The position numbers and the translations under genes are program-made. A stretch of 64,000 nt of DNA, from assembly GCA_009768925.2 (NCBI GenBank), contig VHIT02000034.1, forward strand, positions 186,001 through 250,000. The letters run 5' to 3'. Positions 5,749-33,127 of this stretch are shown here, one piece after another. The notes below the pieces were generated by a model. The model was not told the origin of the DNA and made no database searches. It worked only from the letters and a program-made list of their open reading frames with translations. Each line of letters begins with the position of its first letter. The stretch's first letter is position 1. Source of the DNA: Cryptosporidium bovis. Lineage: Eukaryota; Apicomplexa; Conoidasida; Eucoccidiorida; Cryptosporidiidae.

Positions 5749-5830
5749 CGACAATGGCAGGATTCGAACCTGCGCAGCGAGACGCTATCAGTTTTCGAGA
5801 CTGACCTCTTAACCACTCGAGCACATTGCC
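5749..5830 (-). tRNA. tRNA-Ser(CGA), reading codon UCG
   Basis: An 82-nt sequence folds into a complete class II tRNA. Acceptor GGCAATG pairs with CATTGTC (one G-T pair). The D arm is CTC-GAGTGGTTAA-GAG. The anticodon stem TCAGT/ACTGA has loop CTCGAAA, giving anticodon CGA. The long variable arm has stem AGCG/CGCT, typical of serine tRNAs. The T arm is GCAGG-TTCGAAT-CCTGC. Discriminator base 73 is G, as expected for eukaryotic tRNA-Ser. No CCA is encoded. The internal B box GGTTCGAATCC is canonical. There is no intron. A T5 terminator follows directly. Confidence 0.96.
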
Positions 5831-9020: not shown

Positions 9021-10784
9021 ATGGTGAGATACAGAGAAAATGATATTTCATCCTATAATGACAATCCATTGGGTTTATTGCCATCTCGTTTTATAGCAAA
9101 TTCAAGAAGTCATTTAAATATTACTGGTATATTAGTATGCTTGCTTAGATTTTTTTCTTATTATCCGGTTTGGCTATTACTCAACAATACAGAAAGTAGG
9201 TGGTATTTCGACAATGGCCCTTTTTTAATCCTGCTTTCAATAGTCCTAGGTTTAATTAATAATACACTATATGTTTTGATATCCTTTGGCGATCCAGGTT
9301 TTTTAAGGTCTTGTCCTTCATCTAAACTAAGACCAGTAGATAGGATTCGTGATCCGCTTAGAGTAAAGTATAGTATAGAATTAAAAGGTTTAGATAATAC
9401 ACAAAAAGGATTTGTTTCAGGTAGCAATGGAGACAATGTTATTATTTCTGACACTTTATATAGTTCTGAGGAAGAGCTGGATGAAGATGAAAATATTGAT
9501 GTATTAGGTAATTCCGTTCGTGAAATTGACTACTGCTCGAATCTTGGGACAGTGAGAAGTAATAAACCACTAAAAAGATTAGTTTCAGAGGGAATGGAAG
9601 ATGAGAAAAGAACCGAAGAAGTTATTAGTATAGATTCTTCTGGATTTTCCAATGGAGATGACGCTTTGAACCAACATTTAAATATAATTTCAGGAAACAC
9701 CATAATGTCTTTCCCATTACTAAATGCAAATAGACTTATTAGTTCATCAATTAGAATTGACAAAAGTACTGCTAGTTTGAGTTTGGCAATGGAAAGCGCT
9801 CCTGGCCATATTTTAAATTCAATAGGTGTTTCTCAATTCAAGAATAGCAATAATTTGTTTTTCAAGGAAAGGAAAGAAATCGGTTATTTTGAAAATGATA
9901 AGCTGGATCAAGACAATAATGCTTTTGGGGATTCGAATGCAGAAAGTCAGGATTTTATCATTGACATTCCAAAAATTGACAACAAAGCTAATATTGACGC
10001 TTTTAATACTTTTTACGATAAGAACAAACAAGTAAACAGAAAAAAAAGCGAAATGAATATGTTATTCCATTCTAGAACAAATCTGGATACTAGTCTTACA
10101 TTTCCTCTCTCACCTTGTTCTTCGGATGGAATAGACTTTTTACCTAGGAAAGATGCGAATGGAACGGATATAGCTAATAGTTATTTTCAAAGTGATGATG
10201 GCTTTTTTGTATTTAAACAAGGGAAAATGTACCAAAATGGAGTTAGACTGAGATTTTGTGACTATTGTAGGATGTATCAACCGCTTCGAACTAAACACTG
10301 TTCTTCTTGTGAAAGATGTATAAGGACACATGATCATCATTGCCCTTGGCTTGGAATATGCATTGGGGAATATAATAGATGCAAATTTTGGTGGCTTTCT
10401 CTTGTTCAAGCCCCGGAGTGCATTTGGGTGCTTTACTGTACTTATCTTTGCCTTTTCAAAGTGCAACTCATCAACAACCATCCGTCACTTTTTGAAATTA
10501 TTTCTCTTATTGCAATTTCTGGCAATGCATTATTTATTGGATTTTTATCACTACTTCTAGTAGTATATCATTTTTTTTTGGCCCTCAATAATTTAACTAC
10601 ATGGGAAAATTTGGCTTGGAGTAAGATATCGTATTTAAAGCCTTTTCCTGACACACAAAGCTCTCCATTCTCTAGAGGGTATTTATATAACATTGCAGTA
10701 TTTTGCATACCCCATTGCGTAGATGATCTTATTATTGGGGAAGAAGGAGAAATTATATGGGAAAGAAACCAACCCGAAAAATAA
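9021..10784 (+). CDS. DHHC-type protein S-palmitoyltransferase
   Basis: Membrane enzyme that palmitoylates cysteines on target proteins. 587 residues, one exon. Seen: two N-terminal hydrophobic spans (around residues 36-54 and 66-90); a cytosolic loop of about 310 residues, acidic and Ser/Asn-rich, that is much longer than usual; then the Cys-rich domain RFCDYCRMYQPLRTKHCSSC-ERCIRTHDHHCPWLG with DHHC at 438-441. Two further hydrophobic spans follow (IWVLYCTYLCLFKV and ISGNALFIGFLSLLLVVYHFF). The conserved TTxE motif appears as TTWE. All Cys/His ligands and the catalytic Cys441 are present, so it should be active. The long loop between TM2 and the DHHC domain is the unusual part. Localisation cannot be read from the sequence. 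Confidence 0.93.
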   Translation: MVRYRENDISSYNDNPLGLLPSRFIANSRSHLNITGILVCLLRFFSYYPVWLLLNNTESRWYFDNGPFLILLSIVLGLINNTLYVLISFGDPGFLRSCPSSKLRPVDRIRDPLRVKYSIELKGLDNTQKGFVSGSNGDNVIISDTLYSSEEELDEDENIDVLGNSVREIDYCSNLGTVRSNKPLKRLVSEGMEDEKRTEEVISIDSSGFSNGDDALNQHLNIISGNTIMSFPLLNANRLISSSIRIDKSTASLSLAMESAPGHILNSIGVSQFKNSNNLFFKERKEIGYFENDKLDQDNNAFGDSNAESQDFIIDIPKIDNKANIDAFNTFYDKNKQVNRKKSEMNMLFHSRTNLDTSLTFPLSPCSSDGIDFLPRKDANGTDIANSYFQSDDGFFVFKQGKMYQNGVRLRFCDYCRMYQPLRTKHCSSCERCIRTHDHHCPWLGICIGEYNRCKFWWLSLVQAPECIWVLYCTYLCLFKVQLINNHPSLFEIISLIAISGNALFIGFLSLLLVVYHFFLALNNLTTWENLAWSKISYLKPFPDTQSSPFSRGYLYNIAVFCIPHCVDDLIIGEEGEIIWERNQPEK

Positions 10785-21572: not shown

Positions 21573-24500
21573 ATGGTTGATGAAAATGAGTTATCTAAAA
21601 GATTCGGGTATAAGAATAACAGCAATTTAGTGATTCAAACAGGTCAAAGGAACAGAGAAAATGCTCCTACTGGAGAGGCAGAAAGTTTGGTTGGAAGGAT
21701 TAAATATAGGATGGGAGATTTGGCTAACAAAGGGGTTAAGGTGAAGAAACCAGAAAAAAAAGTAATTAATAGGAAGACTTCGAATAAAATAGTGAATGAA
21801 AATGAAACTTATAACATTTTGGAAATGGATATTGGAAGTAAAAATAGGTACAGACCAACTACAATCGAAACAAAACTTGCATATGATGAGCTGTTGGGAA
21901 TATTGACTGATATTTTAGGATCTCAGCCGGGAAATATAATGGATGATATAGTATTTGAACTATTATCAATATTAAAAAATGGCGAGATAAATGAAGAAGA
22001 GAAAAGAGAAAGATGTAATAACATATTATCCGACATTAAAAATGATGATTACACTGAAATAATTGATAAAAGTAGGAAAATAACAGATTTTATTTATAAC
22101 ATTGATGATGAATTAGAAGAGAGCGATGTTAGGAATTCCTCGGAGGTTGCAGTTGTATTTGATGAAAGTGAATCAGAGGATAGTAGTAATGACGATTACA
22201 AAAACGAATTAGATGATGGCCTAGATGTTATTGATACTGAAAGTGAGAACGAGAATTACCTTTATGAGGAAAATGATGGTGATAATGATAACAATTACGA
22301 TGAAAATAATGAATCTGAAGATTTCATACATTCGATACACAGTAAAAGTGATAAAAATAACTTGATTGAAGATCCTGATATCATTGAAATAAATAAATTA
22401 GATGCATATTGGTTACAAAGAGAGTTATATTCCCTCTATAATGATGCAGAAAAGTCATTGGAACTTGAGCAAAAAATAATATCAATATTAGAAATAGTTG
22501 ACGACCAAGAATGTGAAAACTCCTTAGTTTTGTTGTTTAACTATGAGAATTTTTCTTGGATAAAAAAACTATTAAAGAATAGGTGGAATATTTATTTCTG
22601 TACTATACTTGGCCAAGCATCTTCTGACAACGAAAAAGGGAAAATAATTGAAAAAATGAAAAGCCATCCTCAAGGATCAATTGTACTTGATCTACTGAGT
22701 AAGCCTTCTATTTTGAAAGGCAAGAGTTCAAGTTTTTTGAATTCTATAGAAAAGTTGATAGAAAATAGCGTAGATGAAACAAATAATAATACAGCTAAAG
22801 ATACTTCAACTATTATGGAAGGAAGTGGTTATCTCTATTCAAAGAGAACAAGAGGTAAATTGTTAGACTTGGAACGTATATATCAAGAACAAAGTATTAA
22901 TACTAACTTGAATACAAAGGTAGTGCTTCCAGAAGGAACTGAAAGAGTAGAAGATGTAGACTATGACTCAATAGTTATATATCCAATAACGGCAAAACGC
23001 GAGAGAATAAATAAAGTTTCTATAAGTGACCTGCCAGAGTGGTGTAGAGAATGTTTTAGTTGTGTTTCAATAACTCATTTGAATGAAATTCAGAGTAAAG
23101 TTTATGATACTGCATTCAAAGAGTACAATGAGAATATGCTTATTTGTGCTCCAACAGGTTCGGGTAAGACTAATATTGCAATGTTATGTATATTAAATGT
23201 TATATCACAATATATTACTAAACAAGGAGGTGAAAAACCAATTTTAGACATATCTAAATTCAAAATAGTTTATGTATCACCCATAAAGGCACTTGTTGCG
23301 GAGCAAGTTGAATCACTTAGAATGAGACTTAAGCCTTTGGGAATAACCGTGAATGAGATGACTGGTGATACAAGAGTGAGTCGTTCACTTATGGATTTGA
23401 CCCAAGTGTTTGTAACAACACCGGAAAAATTTGATGTAATTACGAGAAAAACTACAGATGGCCTTTCTGATAGGGTTAAATTAATTATTTTTGATGAGGT
23501 GCACATGTTACATGATTCTAGAGGTGCAGTTTTGGAGGGAATAGTGGCAAGATTTAAAAAAAGCTATGTTAGGATGGTTGGTCTGTCTGCTACTCTTCCA
23601 AACTATTTAGATATAGCAGAATTTTTGAGTGTTGACCCTGTAAAAGGATTGTTCCATTTTGGTCCAGAATATAGACCAGTTCCCTTATTACAAACATTTA
23701 TTGGGATCAAAGCAAAAAAAGGTTTCAAAAAACTTCAACTTATGAATGAGTTAGTATTAGAAAGGGTATTAAATGACATAACTAAACATCAAATCCTGGT
23801 TTTCGTTCATTCCAGGAAAGATACATTACAAACAGCTAGATTTATAAGAGATAAATCTATAGAAAAAGGTAGATCTGAGTTATTTTTTCAAGGTAGCAGT
23901 AATGTATCTAGGGAAATTATATTTGATGAGATTTCTAAGATAAAATCCAACAACTTAAAAGAGATTCTTCCATCTGGTATCGGAATACATCATGCAGGTT
24001 TAGTTAGATCTGATAGGAAAATAATTGAAGATTTGTTTTCAGACGGTCATATTAAGGTTTTAGTTACAACTGCTACACTAGCATGGGGTGTTAATTTACC
24101 AGCTCATACGGTAATTATAAAAGGGACTCAAATATATCAACCAGAAAGAGGTGAGTGGACTGAGCTTTCTCCACTAGATATGTTACAAATGATCGGAAGA
24201 GGAGGGAGGCCTCAATATGATAATAATGGTCATGGTATTGTAATAACAGACTTTGACCATCTTACATATTATTTGTCTCTATTAAATCAACAACTCAATA
24301 TTGAATCGCAGTTAATACCTAAACTGCCAGATTTTATTAATGCTGAAATATCATTGGGTAATATTAAGAATAAGAGTGATATTATTAACTGGATAAAAGA
24401 TACATTTCTTTACATAAGAGTGAGAAGAAATCCGAAGCTATATGGGCTTGATATAGATAGAGGTGGCAATTTAGATCTAGAAAAAGAATTGCAGGATCAT

Positions 24501-27500
24501 GATATGAATCAGGAAAGTAGAGATATTTTAATCAAAAAATCAATAGAGAATTATTTGTTAAAGTTAATTGAAACTTCAATAGATAGGCTCGAGAAGTGTG
24601 AAATGATACAGTACGATGGTAGGGATGGCGTTATTGAATCATTATTCTTGGGAAAAATATCTTCTCACTTTTATTTAACGCCAGAAACTGTATGCGACTT
24701 AAACAAACAATTATTGCCAAATTTGTCAGAAATACAATTATTTAGGTTATTTTCAACATGTAAGGAATTTAAATATTTGGTTGTAAGAAACGAGGAGAAA
24801 ATTGAACTCGAAAAACTTGTAAATAAAGTTCCAATACCTATACAAGGAATAAGAACAGCTGTTAATAATATGAATGGAATGGAGAATATTAATAGTAATA
24901 TGATGATAGACCTGGATGTATATACAAAAATAAATGTACTTCTTCAATTATATTTAACTGGTTCTAGATGGGTTAATGCCAAATTAACATTACTTTCTGA
25001 TTTACACTATATTGTTCAATCTGCTCCAAGGATATTTAGAGCTGTTTTTCATTTATCACTATATAAAAGATGGTCAACATTAGCAAAGAGAACATTAAAA
25101 ATAGCGACGGTAAGTTAATTACTTTACCAATAAATTCATATATAGTAAAATAATATAATAAATAAATGTCAACATTGAAGTTTTATGTAAATGATCATTA
25201 AAGGATATAATGATGATAAAACGTAAATTCTTGTCACTACCATTGAATAATTAGTTATTCATTTTCTTTTATATTGAAAATGAATAATTTATCAAATGAA
25301 AATAATAAACGTTTTTAAATCTGAATTTTTCCTTAATGATTGTGTTAAATAATGAAAAATGTTGTATATTTTGAATCTTAGCATTTATTTATTGAAATTA
25401 TTATTTTATTATAAATATTGCCAAAATTTGAGCCTACATTTGAGTTACATTTTATTAACTTCAATTAACTATATAGATGGTAGAGAGGAGAACATGGGAA
25501 GCAATGTCCCCATTGAGACAATTTAAGGGAATATCAGAAGAGGTTGTGAAAAGATTAGAAAAAAAGGATATAAATTGGAACAAGTATTATGATTTTACTT
25601 CTAATCAGTTGGGTGAGATATTGAAGTCAGGTAAATTAGGTAAGTTTTATTTAATTTAATAATTAAACATTGCCCATGTAATGGTTTGTACTATTCCTTA
25701 TTTGCATAAAATTATGTAATATTGAGTATATAATAATAGTAAGTCAATTTAATTATTACTATTAATACATGATTTTATCTGACGTGATAATAAGTTGCAT
25801 ATTGAAAGATGGTGAATGTGATGATAAACAAAACAAAATTGACAAGCATATGTCTGAATTTGCACAAACTTAATCTGAGGTCATATATCTTTATTTTTTA
25901 GGCTTTGCATTTCTGGCATGTTATTATTTGCATTTGTATTTGTTATTTTTTAACATATACATATGTTTTTAAATGCATGTTCGAGATGAAGTCTTCTTTT
26001 AGTGATATATGTACACAGATCTAAGATATTTTTGATGTCAAGGTTTTAATATCTGACTCACCAATTTATGTATGTGACTTGTATTCTTTTGTCACGGAAT
26101 GAGGAATTATATATATCATTATGTGGTGATTTACTTAATGATGTTTTTTACAATTTAATAATTTAATGAATACGCTGTAGGACCGGTTCTGTACAACTTA
26201 ATAAGAAAATTACCAAGAGTTAATATAAAGGGAACGGTGTTCCCACTGGATTCGAGAGTATTGCAAGTTAATTTGGTTGTGAAACCTGATTTTATATGGG
26301 ATACTAAAATACACGGTCAATCTTTATCTGGAGATATAAATACGGAGAAGATGAATACAGGTGAAACATTTTGGATATTTATTGAAGATTGTAATGGAGA
26401 CTATTTGTACTATTCAGATATGATTGTCATAAGGCCATCATTTCGAGGGAGAAACGATGAAGAAAATAATACAGAAATAAAAATGGAGGATGAATATCAC
26501 TTAAGTTATCAAATATTTTTAGATAAGAATAATATAGATAGTTATTATGACGGCAATAATGATGATGTAATACCACCATTTATACTTGTGAAAGCAATTG
26601 CAGATAGATGGCTTCACTCAGAAACATGTATACCTATTTCCCTAGAAAGATTAATTTTACCAAATAAACACAAAGAATACACGGAATTGCTTGATTTGAA
26701 TCCAATAAATATAACAAAAGGTTTTTCAGATAACAAATTAATAGATAAATATTTAGAAAGAATGTTCAATGTAAAAAATATAGATGAGGATATAAAACTA
26801 AATCCCATACAAACTCAACTATTCAATTTAATATATAACTCTGACAAAAGTTTTTATTTATCGTCACCACCTGGTAACGGACAGTTTATTTGTTTATGTA
26901 TGGGAATATTGAGAGAGTTGAAGATTAGACCAGATTTACTGGATGACAATTTTCAAGTTTTAATACTTGAATGTAATTCAGAGAAAGTTAATTATATAGG
27001 ATCAAAATTAATCAATATATTTGGCGATTCTGCTGTTGGGATTTTGAATAATAATAGTGATTTTAATGATATGATTATAAGTAAAAAGTCAATAATAGTT
27101 TCAAATGTATACTATTGGGATAAAGTGAGCAAAAAGCTCTCGAAAATACGCGAAATATTAAAGTCACTTAAATTATTAGTTATAAATGAATTGGAATACA
27201 TATTCAACAACAACAACAATGGCAATGATAATTTTAGTGGATATGTTGTGGAATCAGCTATATCAAGACTGAGATATATGATAACCCCACTAAATTTAAA
27301 TATACGTACATTTGGATATTCAAAGTGTATTTCTAATGCATATGAGGTTTCTGAATGGCTAGGTATACCAAAAGAAAATACATTTTCATTTGATCAAAAT
27401 ATATTTAATGATAGTATTGAGAAGAGGGTTATAGGATTCGATTCATATTATCGTTCAACACGTTTACAAATGATGTTAAAGTATATTAAGGAGCAAATAT

Positions 27501-30071
27501 TGAGATTGAAAGTAAATGAAGGGAAAAAAGACACATTGTTAATATATGTTTTGGAATACGAATTTTGTTTATCTATTTCAAATGAGTTGTCATTGTTTAT
27601 ATCAGAAAATATTTCTATTCATAGTAATTTATGTAACAATGATATACTATTAAATAAAAATAACATCTCTATATTAGAAAGATATGTGACCAATGGTATA
27701 GGATATTTATACAGGAGTCAACCTGAACTAGAGAAGGAATATGTAATTACGCAGTATAATTCTGGTAATATATGTATATTGATTGCTTGTGAAGATATGA
27801 AAGATTTTATCAATTTAAAATTTAATAGAGTTATTGTTATGGACACAAAAAAAATAGATCAAGACGATAATATGGGATCTTCTACAATAAACTTTAGCGA
27901 TAGAAGAAATGTTGAGTATTCTCATTTGGATATTCACCAAATGATGAGTAGGTGTCATCATTGCACGAACAACAAATCATATTATAATTCAAGATCTTCA
28001 TTTACTCTACTTTGTTCCACTAATAAACAAGAATTTTATGAATACATACTAGAAAATACTTTGCCTTTGGAGTCTAGTATTGATGATGGTATTATTGATT
28101 GCATTAATACTGAAATTGCTTTAAGGACTATAAAAACTAAACAGGATACGATTGATTGGATAACATGGACACTTTATTATAGAAGGATATCGAAGGTAAG
28201 TTGATTGATTCAGAGTGATAAAGAATGAAATTAAGGTAAATTGAGCATTTTCCAATAAAAAAGTTTACCTTATTTTAACATATTTTTATATAAACAATTT
28301 AAATGAATTATTATGAGTAAAAAAGTGATATTTTGTATTTAATGAATATAATATATTTAACATTCATACTGAGGAGACAATACTCTTATGATGACAATTC
28401 AATAGTCATGATTTTTAATTTTAATCATTGTAATTCTTAAAATGATGTAGATTATAATTATGTTCGTACTGTCTGATAAAGAGTATATTATTTTCAGTTT
28501 TGGTGTTAGTTTAATTCAACTTGGATTATATTTACCTAAGTACATGATAAAATGTCAATATAGCACATATAAATGTGAACTAAATATTTAACAAGTGCTC
28601 AGTTTTTTTAATTCAACTCACTCGATCTAGTTCGCATACTAATGAATAATTACTAAATTTTATTAACTTTCAATTTAAATTTTAGAATCCAAGCTACTAT
28701 GGTATGAGTGGTAATACCAATAAGCATATTTCAGATTTTTTATCAGAATATTTAGAGAACTTATTAGATTCACTTTCAAGTGCAAAATTCATTCAAATAA
28801 TTGAAAATGATGGTCTGGAAGATGAGAACTCGAGTGATTGTAACAACAATGAGATTGTAGTTACAAGTGAAGAGATAGTTCCACAAAATTTATGTTTAAT
28901 TTCAGCTTTTTACAACATTAAAGTGTCTAGTATTGAATTTATAAGTAGAAACATGAATGTTGATGATACATATGACTCGCTATTAAGATTAATATCTCTT
29001 ACACCAATTATACAAGAAAACTGTATAATTAGAAAAGGGGATATAAATATGATGATTCAACTAAGTAAAGATATACGCTTAAATTCTATTGGTAAAGATG
29101 ATACATTAGTATCGAAAAAAATAAAAATATTATTAAATTCATATTTAAGACGTCATAAGTGGTATTTAACAAGACCTATTGTTAAAGCTGACATTTACAA
29201 ATTGATTAATTCAGTAATGAGTCTAATATACCCAATGGTGGATATATCAAGTTCATTTGGCTGGACAGAAACAACTTTAAAAATAATGGAGCTTTGTCAA
29301 ATGTTTGTTCAGGCAATAGTAGATCCGGTAGCTGATAAGTTAAAACAATTACCAGGCGTAAAAACAAGTGATCAAGTTAAAATATTTAATGAGCTAGGCG
29401 TTTTTGACGTGTATGATTTGATTAATTTAGAAGATGAACGCAGAATAGATCTACTTTATAATAAGGCTGGTCTTGATGATGAAGATGTAAATAAGATAGC
29501 AAGAGTTTGCAACAATTTTCCAATAATTGAAACGGAATACACCCTTATACAAGTGGAAGATGATAATAATTGCAAAACTAATAAAACAGGCCGTGAAGTG
29601 AGTAGTATTAAGAGAAGGAAGACTGAAAACCCGGTTAATGGCAACACCAGAACGTTTGAGTTTAACAGTGAGTCTGAAATCATTATTGTAATTAACATTC
29701 GTAGAGATTTTAATCCTGATGAAGATATGGATAATCAACTAGTACTAGATGATCTTGAATATTATCCATTGAAGGAGAAAATTGAAAAGTGGTGGATATT
29801 ATTGTTGGAGAAGAATGGCGATAGCGACCACTCTTCATTGAGAGAAGAAAGAGAAATTCTGGAACAAATAGGTAAACAAAACGAGTACAACAAAAATGAT
29901 GAGAGAATTATTGGGATTAAAATTGTGACGTTAAACAAGGAAAAAAATGAAATAACACTTAAATTTAATTCAAATAGTGAATTAAACACTATTACAAACT
30001 ACAAATTATTATTAGTTTGCGACAGTTTTATAGGATGTGACCAAGAATTTTGTTTTAATATCAAAACTTAG
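21573..30071 (+). CDS. BRR2: BRR2/SNRNP200 spliceosomal helicase, four exons
   Basis: U5 snRNP Ski2-like helicase that unwinds U4/U6 for spliceosome activation. Model: exons 21573-25109, 25477-25639, 26181-28195 and 28686-30071; introns of 367, 541 and 490 nt; 2366 residues. Seen: the N-terminal YKNNSNLVIQT...PTGEAESLVGRI signature of BRR2; first cassette APTGSGKT (526-533), DEVH (641-644), GLSATLPNY, and MIGRGGRPQYD. Across the junctions the protein reads TLKIAT-MVERRTWEAMSPLRQF, KSGKLGPVLYNLIRKLP and YYRRISK-NPSYYGMSG, matching the family. The second Sec63 unit ends in the conserved LLLVCDSFIGCDQEFCFNI. The second helicase cassette has lost its motifs: Walker A is PPGNGQF (1463-1469) and the DEVH position is NELE (1569-1572). 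Each intron hosts a candidate C/D snoRNA. Confidence 0.93.
25194..25341 (+). ncRNA. Candidate box C/D snoRNA in BRR2 intron 1
   Basis: C box ATGATGA at 25210-25216; D box CTGA at 25321-25324; D'-like TTGA at 25243-25246. Directly before the D' site, TTCTTGTCACTACC (25228-25241) is complementary over 14 nt to GGTAGTGACAAGAA of Cryptosporidium 18S rRNA (recalled sequence). By the plus-five rule the target is the A of GGT-A-GTG. Flanking sequences pair: ATCATTA-AAGGA upstream with TCCTTAATGAT downstream, 11-12 bp with one bulged A. This stem is set about 4 nt back from the boxes. No clear C' box is visible. The D-box guide (AAACGTTTTTAAAT) has no target I recognise. Confidence 0.62.
25805..25892 (+). 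ncRNA. Box C/D snoRNA in BRR2 intron 2, U27/snR74-like
   Basis: C box GTGATGA at 25818-25824; D' box CTGA at 25854-25857; D box CTGA at 25875-25878. The segment GACAAGCATATG (25841-25852), just before D', is the perfect 12-nt complement of CATATGCTTGTC near the 5' end of 18S rRNA. By the plus-five rule the target is the A in CAT-A-TG, which by my count is yeast 18S A28 and human A27. Those are the positions methylated by snR74 and U27, and the C-to-D' segment resembles human U27 from memory. The 3' half is short, with no obvious C' box. The terminal stem is weak (TGA/TCA near the boxes, AAAGAT/ATCTTT further out). An alternative reading, with D at 25854, has a 6-bp stem at 25812-25817/25858-25863. 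Confidence 0.8.
28381..28485 (+). ncRNA. Box C/D snoRNA in BRR2 intron 3
   Basis: C box ATGATGA at 28388-28394; C' box ATGATGT at 28442-28448; D box CTGA at 28473-28476. A perfect 7-bp terminal stem closes it: TACTCTT (28381-28387), directly before the C box, with AAGAGTA (28479-28485), 2 nt after the D box. The layout and length (105 nt) are those of an intron-processed C/D snoRNA. A degenerate D' (CTTA) lies just before C'. The D-box guide ends in TTATGTTCGTACTGT. I could not place its target or the D' target in rRNA, so the guide specificity is open. Confidence 0.75.
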
Positions 30072-30251: not shown

Positions 30252-32744
30252 TTACCTTTTAACCCTTTTATTTATATTGGTACTTCTAATGTGTTGAAGA
30301 ATTGAATTCATGCCTATATCATCTGAAATGTCATGATCTTTACTTCTATCATCAGAATCAAAGCTTTTGTTTTTAATCTCACTCTTATTTATCCTCTTGT
30401 TATTGATATTAATGTCGCCATTATTATCGGTAGTTTCAATTTTTTCGTCAATAATGCTCTTGAACATTTCCCTAGTTTTGTCTATCTTATTGTTTATATC
30501 GTACCAATTCTTGTCTTGTTTAACAAAGGTTTCTATTTTTAAACTTTTGAATATTTTGAAGTTTTCACTCATAATTACGTCCTTTCCACCACCTCGTTCC
30601 TCATCCAAGAGCTCTTCAACTATTATTTTACGGTAAAAGTGGTCAGAGGCATAAAACATTGCAATTAGTGCATAGTTACAAACCCCACCCTTCAACGTAA
30701 GTCTTAAAAAGTCTCCAATATAACTTTGTATCCATTTTTTTTTAATAGATGTTGGAATAGTACTTGTGCTAGATAAAATATTTTCTACCATTCTGGTACC
30801 ATAATTTGTTTCTATTATTTCGCTCTTCATTGCATTTTTAAAATTGGTTATAAAATATGTTATGCCAGATATTAATGGATGTATTGTTTCTGCCGGGAAT
30901 TTTGAGAGTGAACTTATAATCATACACCCTTGGGACGATATTTTGTACTCAGAAGATTGAAACACTTCACATTCAGAGTTAAAATTGCCAGAATCATTCT
31001 TGTTCTCATTGTCTGTATCATTCATATAACCTTTAGTCTGATTAATGCAATTACCTTGGCTGCCATCTTTTTTTGAACTGTCAAAAATACTCCTTTTTAC
31101 CAGAAATATTAGGCACGAAAAAGTATATTGGTAGTCTTCACTCGTTTCTATCTCCAGAGACTTCCACAATTTCCTAGTTAGGTATTTGTATTCACACTGA
31201 AATCTCCTACATGAATCTATAAGTGCAATAAGTATATCTATAAATTCCTTTTTACACGTTAACTTTGAAAAGTCAAGCGATTTTAAGACCAAAGTAAACT
31301 CTTCCTTTCTTAGAACATTAGACTTAAGCAAGTTTAGTATCACAAAGTGACCATATTCTGAATTAAGCATTTTATCAATCATTCTTTCTTTGTCGCAAGC
31401 TCCTTTAATTGAGTCAGAAGACGTTAGTGATGAAATTAAACATGTGTGAGAACTAGTCCAAATTGTAATTATATCATAAGGAACAATCTCTAATAAAGCT
31501 TCAAGCAGTCTACTTTTTAAGCTGCAATTTATCCAGTTATTCGTGCAGTTTATGAGTAATCTAGATATCTTATCAGTATCTAATTTAGATTTTTCAATAA
31601 TTTCGCCTATAATATCCTCCTCTACCTCTTGGCCATTCGTAATTATCACTGTTATTATTCTACCTAGAATTTTCAAGTACTTATTCTCCTTCCTACTTGC
31701 CTCATTTAAGGCTCTAAGTAGTGTTATTAATGAAGGCAACCCATATGCATCACTTATTATTCCCTCCATATCTAATAACAAAGCCTTATATATTTGATTT
31801 GAGATTGTATTGCTTGTATTACAGTCATCATCCAAACCAGTTTTGTCTTCTTCTCCAAATGTACACAACAAACTCAACAAGTCTTTTGTTGAATAACGCT
31901 CACTGCTGAATGAAATCTTGTTGTTGGAACGCACTTTACTTCCCTGATTTCTTCTTCCTATACTTTCCATTATGTACTCTTCCATTGCTTCAATACTCAT
32001 TTTAATTTTTCCCACGCAAATGTTCATTATAATTCTCCCTACATGTGTAGCCGATGAATCAGTGATTACTGAAATCCAACCTGGACCTTCTCCAAGTCTT
32101 TTTATAGAATCAACAATTATATTTCGTATTCTATCTCTCTCGCATATTAGAGACTCCCTTACTCCCTTAAGCTTTTTATCATTCAGCATTTTTCCTATAT
32201 AGTTTTGAAGTAGTATTCCTTCTTCCAAAGCTGTTTCAGTTATGTGAGAGCCATACATGCTAAATACATTATTTTCTACTTCCCTGAAAACGCTTTCTAG
32301 TATAAACACGCATTTACTTAATGTATTCATCAGTCTCTCTAAATGAATGCTGTTTTCTTGTTTATCTTCATTTTTAGAATCAGGGACATTATCAAATAAT
32401 CTTCTTATGCTTAATATACCTATACTCAATATCAACTCAAATGTCTTACTACACCTCTGATCCGTGAGTAATAATGTCTCTATATCTTTTTTTTTCATAT
32501 CTTCAACCATTCTTTCCACTAAAATTTCGCAATTCTCTTCATCATCTAACAACTCTCCATCCAGTATTGCACTTTTTATTCTCTTATAGTAACCAAGAAT
32601 TTCCGAATAACGATTTTCAGTTTCATTTATTGACTTTTTTCCAGATGAGTCATCATTCACAAACCCGTATGTATCACTTCCAAAATTAATCGAATCGGTA
32701 TTTTCTGCCACTTTTTCTTTAGTTCTCCTTTTTACCTTGCCCAT
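30252..32744 (-). CDS. NOP9: NOP9-like Pumilio-repeat nucleolar protein
   Basis: In yeast, Nop9 is a nucleolar RNA-binding protein of 11 Pumilio-like repeats needed for 18S rRNA maturation at the ITS1 side. 830 residues, longer than usual (about 640-670). Seen: basic start MGKVKRRTKEK; repeat-like segments LLLTDQRCSKTFELIL, GSHITETALEEGIL, DSSATHVGRIIMNI, YGHFVILNLLKS and TNYGTRMVENILS. The stretch around SIKKKWIQSYIGDFLRLTLKGGVCNYALIAMF, then YRKIIVEELLDE, matches the family C-terminal repeat pattern. The C-terminus is rich in charged residues and ends RSTNINKRVKR. PUM3/Puf6 is the main alternative. Single exon; convergent with BRR2, with 180 bp between stops. An AAGGCGGGC element is at 32935-32943 upstream. 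Confidence 0.68.
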   Translation of the reverse strand: MGKVKRRTKEKVAENTDSINFGSDTYGFVNDDSSGKKSINETENRYSEILGYYKRIKSAILDGELLDDEENCEILVERMVEDMKKKDIETLLLTDQRCSKTFELILSIGILSIRRLFDNVPDSKNEDKQENSIHLERLMNTLSKCVFILESVFREVENNVFSMYGSHITETALEEGILLQNYIGKMLNDKKLKGVRESLICERDRIRNIIVDSIKRLGEGPGWISVITDSSATHVGRIIMNICVGKIKMSIEAMEEYIMESIGRRNQGSKVRSNNKISFSSERYSTKDLLSLLCTFGEEDKTGLDDDCNTSNTISNQIYKALLLDMEGIISDAYGLPSLITLLRALNEASRKENKYLKILGRIITVIITNGQEVEEDIIGEIIEKSKLDTDKISRLLINCTNNWINCSLKSRLLEALLEIVPYDIITIWTSSHTCLISSLTSSDSIKGACDKERMIDKMLNSEYGHFVILNLLKSNVLRKEEFTLVLKSLDFSKLTCKKEFIDILIALIDSCRRFQCEYKYLTRKLWKSLEIETSEDYQYTFSCLIFLVKRSIFDSSKKDGSQGNCINQTKGYMNDTDNENKNDSGNFNSECEVFQSSEYKISSQGCMIISSLSKFPAETIHPLISGITYFITNFKNAMKSEIIETNYGTRMVENILSSTSTIPTSIKKKWIQSYIGDFLRLTLKGGVCNYALIAMFYASDHFYRKIIVEELLDEERGGGKDVIMSENFKIFKSLKIETFVKQDKNWYDINNKIDKTREMFKSIIDEKIETTDNNGDININNKRINKSEIKNKSFDSDDRSKDHDISDDIGMNSILQHIRSTNINKRVKR

Positions 32745-33127
32745 ATTACCTCATCTGCAACTTTAAAAATTTAAGGCAACGAACAATAACAATTTACTCT
32801 TAACTATATCTATTAAATAAATTAACAAACTGTCGAATCTACCAATAGTATATATATTACAGAAAGAAATAAATTAGATACTTTTTTTTCTGCAATATTT
32901 ATTTCGTATGTCATTAAATACTCGTATTGACTTTAAGGCGGGCTTTTCGTTTAATAGATACCTATGAACCGGTACATGTAAATGAAAATAATAAGCAAAG
33001 TACTTATAAAATGATATGATTGGCAACATAATATAATATGCTTAATGAAATAAAAGCAAAATAGGTTTTAGGTATGTGAAATTGTTATAGTTTTTAAGTG
33101 GGTAACTAAAATAATTCGATAGTGTCC

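Follow-up and report, generated by a model that had tools for sequence, protein, structure and literature searches.

Does an intron of a spliceosomal helicase gene in Cryptosporidium encode a small nucleolar RNA (snoRNA), and is it the only intron of that gene to do so? A sequence-only reading of Cryptosporidium bovis DNA had placed a U27/snR74-type C/D snoRNA in intron 2 of the BRR2 gene. We followed up this proposal in the window, by which we mean the whole 64,000-nt stretch analysed (G000:C1:186001-250000), and in the assembly from which it comes (9.06 Mb, 43 contigs). Judged by its sequence, intron 2 very probably encodes a U27/snR74 C/D snoRNA directed to A28 of 18S rRNA, and BRR2 is very probably a snoRNA host whose introns 1 and 3 carry candidates too.

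Structure of the BRR2 Gene

The identification of the host as BRR2 held up. The gene encodes Helicase_PWI, DEAD, SNRNP200_wHTH, and Sec63 domains (Pfam), in the PDB the exon 3 frame best matches chains of the U5 snRNP 200 kDa helicase (E 7.1e-82), and the four exons joined form an open frame (read from 21558) whose single stop is the terminal one. The gene model is predicted from sequence, with the start ATG chosen by us, and the intron borders follow from continuity of frame and domains (Table 1). All three introns start with GTAAGT, which opens 84% of Cryptosporidium introns (PMC2483917). A table in the same source gives a median of 61 nt and a mean of 82 nt (SD 73) for 213 Cryptosporidium parvum introns, and introns are reported in only 5% of C. 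parvum genes (PMC2722674).

Table 1. Features of the BRR2 gene and of the predicted C/D snoRNAs in its introns (window positions)
Feature	Position	Strand	Details	Basis
BRR2 (U5 snRNP 200 kDa helicase) gene	21573..30071	+		Pfam domains, PDB match, open spliced frame
BRR2 exons	21573-25109, 25477-25639, 26181-28195, 28686-30071	+		Frame and domain continuity
Intron 1	25110..25476	+	367 nt, phase 0	GTAAGT...TAG
Candidate C/D snoRNA, intron 1	25191..25343	+	Terminal stem of 14 bp, one bulge	Motif scan
C box, intron 1	25210..25216	+	ATGATGA	Sequence, motif scan
Putative guide, intron 1	25228..25241	+	TTCTTGTCACTACC, 14-nt antisense to 18S GGTAGTGACAAGAA (SNORD70-type, at D′)	Assumed 18S sequence
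D′ box, intron 1	25243..25246	+	TTGA (non-canonical)	Sequence
D box, intron 1	25321..25324	+	CTGA	Motif scan
Intron 2	25640..26180	+	541 nt, phase 1	GTAAGT...TAG
Predicted U27/snR74-type C/D snoRNA, intron 2	25805..25892	+	Terminal stem 25805-25815/25881-25892	Rfam SNORD27, 36.0 bits
C box, intron 2	25818..25824	+	GTGATGA	Sequence
Predicted guide, intron 2	25841..25852	+	GACAAGCATATG, antisense to 18S 25-36, plus-five base A28	Genome's own 18S fragment
D′ box, intron 2	25854..25857	+	CTGA	Sequence
D box, intron 2	25875..25878	+	CTGA	Sequence
Intron 3	28196..28685	+	490 nt, phase 0	GTAAGT...TAG
Candidate C/D snoRNA, intron 3	28368..28498	+	C box ATGATGA at 28388-28394	Motif scan, stem
SNORD41-type guide with D box, intron 3	28459..28476	+	TATGTTCGTACTG (28459-28471), T, CTGA (28473-28476)	Rfam SNORD41

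Relatives allowed the positions of introns 1 and 3 to be compared. Apart from the window's own entry, the nearest proteins are those of Cryptosporidium ryanae (82% identical for the exon 1 product and 79% for the exon 3 product). When the donor is read through, the exon 1 frame ends in KIATVS in the three closest entries, namely the window's own, C. ryanae P0013, and P0014; P0002 and P0014 presumably come from one species. The exon 3 frames of four of four aligned proteins, the window's included, hold ISKVS, the read-through of the intron 3 donor. These matching read-through points indicate that close relatives have introns 1 and 3 at the same positions. The more distant P0015 and P0016 are longer proteins in which the intron 3 site is read through as coding sequence, and P0015 also continues past the KIATVS point of exon 1.

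In the public annotation of C. ryanae, BRR2 seems to be divided at its introns into the hypothetical proteins FG386_000194 (P0013) and FG386_000195 (P0001). Tail to tail with BRR2 lies a gene for a NOP9-like PUF-repeat protein (30252-32750, minus strand), presumably a ribosome-biogenesis factor, whose product is 68% identical to that of C. ryanae and 50% to those of Cryptosporidium tyzzeri and Cryptosporidium ubiquitum.

A Predicted U27/snR74-Type RNA in Intron 2

The letters of intron 2 bear out what had been read from them: its borders, the C box, the 12-mer guide, and the D′ box, which a single base (T 25853) separates from the guide. The 12-mer had been described as antisense to the start of 18S rRNA, with the plus-five rule pointing to the adenosine served by U27 and snR74, and the genome's own rRNA agrees on both counts. 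The guide complement, CATATGCTTGTC, has two genome places only, intron 2 and L002 1501-1512; the latter lies within 56 bases of 18S at the end of a contig (L002 1477-1532; Rfam SSU_rRNA_eukarya, 65.2 bits). With L002 1477 taken as base 1, the plus-five rule gives A28, the U27/snR74 site. The pairing spans 12 bp, to which the flanking bases add no pairs. The contig concerned (G000:C38) ends within the rRNA gene, and its 56 bases are all of the 18S seen in the assembly data.

Rfam supports the proposed U27/snR74 identity of the RNA. The SNORD27 model matches 25816-25886 with 36.0 bits (E 2.3e-4 in 924 bases and E 0.0022 in 8.8 kb). In a genome search that scored 64 of 4431 first-look candidates, intron 2 was the best of 10 matches (E 5.3e-4), the next reaching 24.1 bits. 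The scan with this model, which the sequence-only reading had suggested as a check, thus puts intron 2 first in the genome but below the gathering score of 52, a curators' threshold and no defining trait, and it is on account of this cut-off that the RNA is missing from a gathering-threshold scan of the window. What characterizes the SNORD27/U27/snR74 group, a guide to 18S A27/A28 at D′, is present in intron 2. Of 14 prokaryote genomes used as controls, 10 also show weak SNORD27 matches, none above cut-off. The sole above-cut-off Rfam match within the 64-kb window is a tRNA gene (5749-5830, minus strand, 59.8 bits).

The 3′ half of the predicted RNA is indeed short, as had been noted: 17 nt separate D′ from D, and no C′ box was seen in this stretch. 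Together these two features leave room for the reduced, single-guide form that had been proposed, which we consider plausible; upstream of D, no exact 18S match of at least 9 nt was seen (18S sequence assumed beyond base 56). The terminal stem (11 bp, one bulge, -7.8 kcal/mol) is weak evidence, since 186 of 1980 random same-spacing places are as stable, and the fold of the whole intron was uninformative. The probe range suggested earlier, 25811-25883, omits part of this predicted stem.

Comparison with Known U27 RNAs

The predicted RNA resembles SNORD27/U27/snR74 (RF00086) in its C box, its guide GACAAGCAUAUG at D′, its CUGA D′ box, its box D, and its 18S site, and differs in the short D′-D stretch with no C′ box seen, in its host gene, and in scoring below the family's cut-off. 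It shares 19 consecutive bases, TTGACAAGCATATGTCTGA, and the C box GTGATGA with Plasmodium falciparum PFS4, which is assigned to 18S Am28; unlike the intron 2 RNA, PFS4 is listed as intergenic and with a C′ box (PMC2656528). That source reports confirmed expression for 14 of 18 predicted P. falciparum snoRNAs. AtU27, human U27, and yeast snR74 are given at the same 18S site in two sources (PMC3511168, PMC8817022), the second of which adds Dictyostelium CD18. A model of Tetrahymena TtnuCD28 aligns on the intron 2 guide as well (20.7 bits, E 3.1).

Candidates in Introns 1 and 3

Intron 1 has a C box, a D box, and a stem of -13.0 kcal/mol; of 1950 same-spacing places drawn at random from the intron, 0 were as stable. 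Its antisense stretch ends one base before the TTGA D′ box and is the longest 18S match among those listed in the window. The putative target is the A in GGTAGTGAC of 18S, which we take to be the human 18S A512 site. The intron and SNORD70 (RF00575) share GUCACUACCA followed by UGA, but the consensus guide stands beside D and that of intron 1 beside D′. The SNORD70 model does not match intron 1 significantly (19.2 bits, E 2.6; an implausible CRISPR-repeat model ranks above it with E 0.62), and a SNORD70 genome search (60 of 8162 candidates scored) gave three matches, intron 1 not among them. This model also finds weak matches in 9 of 14 prokaryote controls, none above cut-off. We do not claim membership of a family whose guide lies beside box D; from its sequence, the intron 1 candidate may act like SNORD70.

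The intron 3 stem comprises 8 bp beside the boxes and 8 more outside them, and its stability (-16.0 kcal/mol) was reached by 0 of 1965 random places. As in SNORD41 (RF00588), the guide UUCGUACUG stands one base before the CUGA of box D, the arrangement that marks the family; the guides diverge 5′ of UUCG, and the score of 20.5 bits (E 0.23 in 501 bases) falls short of the cut-off of 41. The snoR22 model scores 25.0 bits (E 0.4), and further models, such as the hammerhead, reach similar E values. In the SNORD41 genome search (63 of 2343 candidates scored), intron 3 came first of four matches (E 0.98), with the next only 0.5 bit lower (20.0). Weak SNORD41 matches occur in 13 of 14 prokaryote controls, none above cut-off. 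The exact 13-base complement of the guide has no other occurrence in the genome, 28S being absent from the data seen. Its putative target, the U in CAGUACGAA of 28S, we take to be the human 28S U4276 site.

All three introns thus hold a C box of the form RUGAUGA and a D box CUGA. All three also have a terminal stem, strong in introns 1 and 3 and in intron 2 present but matched by random places. Antisense to rRNA upstream of D or D′ is found in each, in intron 2 against the genome's own 18S, in intron 1 against an assumed 18S sequence, and in intron 3 via the Rfam SNORD41 guide only. The sequence-only reading called a spliceosomal helicase an unusual host for this guide, an understatement now that every BRR2 intron bears a C/D candidate.

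Scan for Further C/D Candidates

The candidates in introns 1 and 3 had been noticed by eye (and in Rfam matches) before a motif scan was run. Run on both strands of the 64 kb, the scan required RTGATGA and CTGA flanked by a perfect stem of 5 bp or more, and gave five matches: one per BRR2 intron, 10192-10251, and 24900-25000. Applied to 200 kb of the window's contig, with a 4-kb overlap with the window, the scan gave four, one of them with a stem of at least 6 bp (12 bp, L085). Of these nine matches, the three in BRR2 introns contain no open frame longer than 43 codons, and all six elsewhere are covered by open frames, on either strand, that run to between 484 and 1824 codons. Given these long frames, we set the six aside as coding. 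By demanding perfect boxes and stems the scan misses real snoRNAs, so it serves as a control for the three introns and is no census. Of 3000 dinucleotide shuffles, a match with a stem of at least 6 bp arose in 13 for intron 1, 13 for intron 2, and 6 for intron 3 (borders for introns 1 and 3 one base short).

Two further places with GGTAGTGACAAG (C8 and C43) were likewise taken as coding, because ∼310 bases surrounding each are open in one frame; the loci hold no above-cut-off Rfam match. A search for rRNA pieces in viral contigs was unproductive, with LSU context words in 0 of 52 loci. One contig of the viral collection (L067), in which an 18S-like end is joined to phage-like sequence with no Rfam match, is probably chimeric.

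Alternative Explanations

Chance could enter in two ways. At its most sweeping, a chance 12-mer beside chance boxes would leave no snoRNA at all. Counting both strands, 12-nt stretches antisense to 18S turn up at 33 separate places in the window (with an assumed 18S sequence past base 56), and the intron 2 12-mer read backwards, our control, also has two genome occurrences. The earlier judgment that the arrangement is very unlikely by chance must therefore be confined to the combination of boxes, guide, and target; it fails for the 12-mer alone. Only after the intron 2 guide, among the 33 places, does CTGA follow within one base. The word shared with PFS4 runs to 19 bases in intron 2 and to at most 13 elsewhere in the window, and the SNORD27 E value holds genome-wide, which together make the absence of any snoRNA extremely improbable. 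More narrowly, the intron 2 snoRNA alone might be real, with the motifs of introns 1 and 3 arising by chance in AT-rich DNA. Neither of these candidates is significant in Rfam, and the window has 31 other 12-nt places antisense to 18S. Against this stand, in both introns, boxes joined to stems that no random place matched, a 14-nt antisense one base before D′ in intron 1, a SNORD41-type guide one base before D in intron 3, and the lack of any comparable non-coding match in the rest of the scanned sequence; we regard this reading as unlikely.

Two other explanations accept the U27 sequence in intron 2 but not its working or its origin from the host. If it were a decayed copy, blocked from forming a working particle by its weak stem and missing C′ box, the short 3′ half and the unexceptional stem would be expected, but the C, D′, and D boxes are intact, as is the guide, which is the sole exact copy in the genome, and the 19-base block common with PFS4 is retained exactly, so that decay appears very unlikely. 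An RNA transcribed from an intronic promoter of its own, independent of BRR2 splicing, has a precedent in PFS4, whose intergenic listing (PMC2656528) implies that the U27 family needs no host intron. That every one of the three introns has a single candidate, always in the sense orientation of the gene, would suit processing from a host better, and we think an internal promoter rather unlikely.

Proposed Pathway and Significance

Splicing, debranching, trimming, and methylation form the known pathway of intronic snoRNAs. If BRR2 acts as a snoRNA host, its introns would be transcribed and processed along this route: after debranching of excised intron 2, trimming would leave the C/D core, snoRNP proteins such as fibrillarin, Nop56/58, and 15.5K would assemble on it, and base pairing of the D′ guide with 18S 25-36 would let fibrillarin methylate the 2′-OH of A28. 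Introns 1 and 3 would likewise supply a SNORD70-type guide to 18S and a SNORD41-type guide to 28S. Other splicing-factor genes serve as snoRNA hosts in vertebrates, so that a host from the spliceosome is in itself no novelty.

The candidates would extend known families, in a host arrangement that we did not meet in the literature searched. Three candidates with named targets in a single gene would add to the five C/D snoRNAs listed for C. parvum in Table 8 of a 2025 review (PMC12246861), which include SNORD96 and SNORD36. That list does not name SNORD27, SNORD70, or SNORD41, and the numbers of its three unnamed C/D entries (cgd2, cgd6, and cgd7) imply that at most one could lie in BRR2. The review describes the modification targets of C. 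parvum snoRNAs as without experimental confirmation. One annotation incorporates small RNAs from earlier work (PMC12179316), and the reference list of PMC12246861 gives the earlier small-RNA work on C. parvum as Li et al. 2022 (doi 10.1099/mgen.0.000821). We found no report of snoRNAs in BRR2 introns in the literature searched, which excluded Li et al. 2022 and does not establish absence from print; one source, PMC8628893, mentions both Cryptosporidium and SNORD27, in unrelated passages.

A broader idea, possible although we hold it doubtful, is that Cryptosporidium lost most of its introns and kept the surviving long ones as snoRNA carriers. BRR2 would then be a three-snoRNA host whose own helicase releases them, tying the level of the spliceosome to rRNA methylation. 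Such a scheme offers a testable reason for the persistence of unusually long introns in a parasite with few introns overall, and might connect splicing with the production of ribosomes.

Other snoRNA Candidates and snoRNP Genes

Two further models served as yardsticks within the same genome, SNORD96 with 42.5 bits (cut-off 43) and SNORD36 with 40.9 bits (cut-off 30). The SNORD96 candidate (L088 1501-1583; G000:C31, around 96261-96343) sits inside a possible 240-nt intron (L088 1431-1670) in a gene with no recognised family, and splicing would leave the flanking frames open whether the acceptor ends at 1670 or at 1691. It is a possible seed for the intron-retention idea and no test of it. For the SNORD36 candidate (L090), no GTAAGT was found upstream on the same strand. 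A second match to the SNORD36 model (G000:C31:243900-243983, 28.2 bits) falls slightly under the cut-off. Among genes for snoRNP proteins, the genome contains a fibrillarin gene (350.9 bits) and three Nop-domain places.
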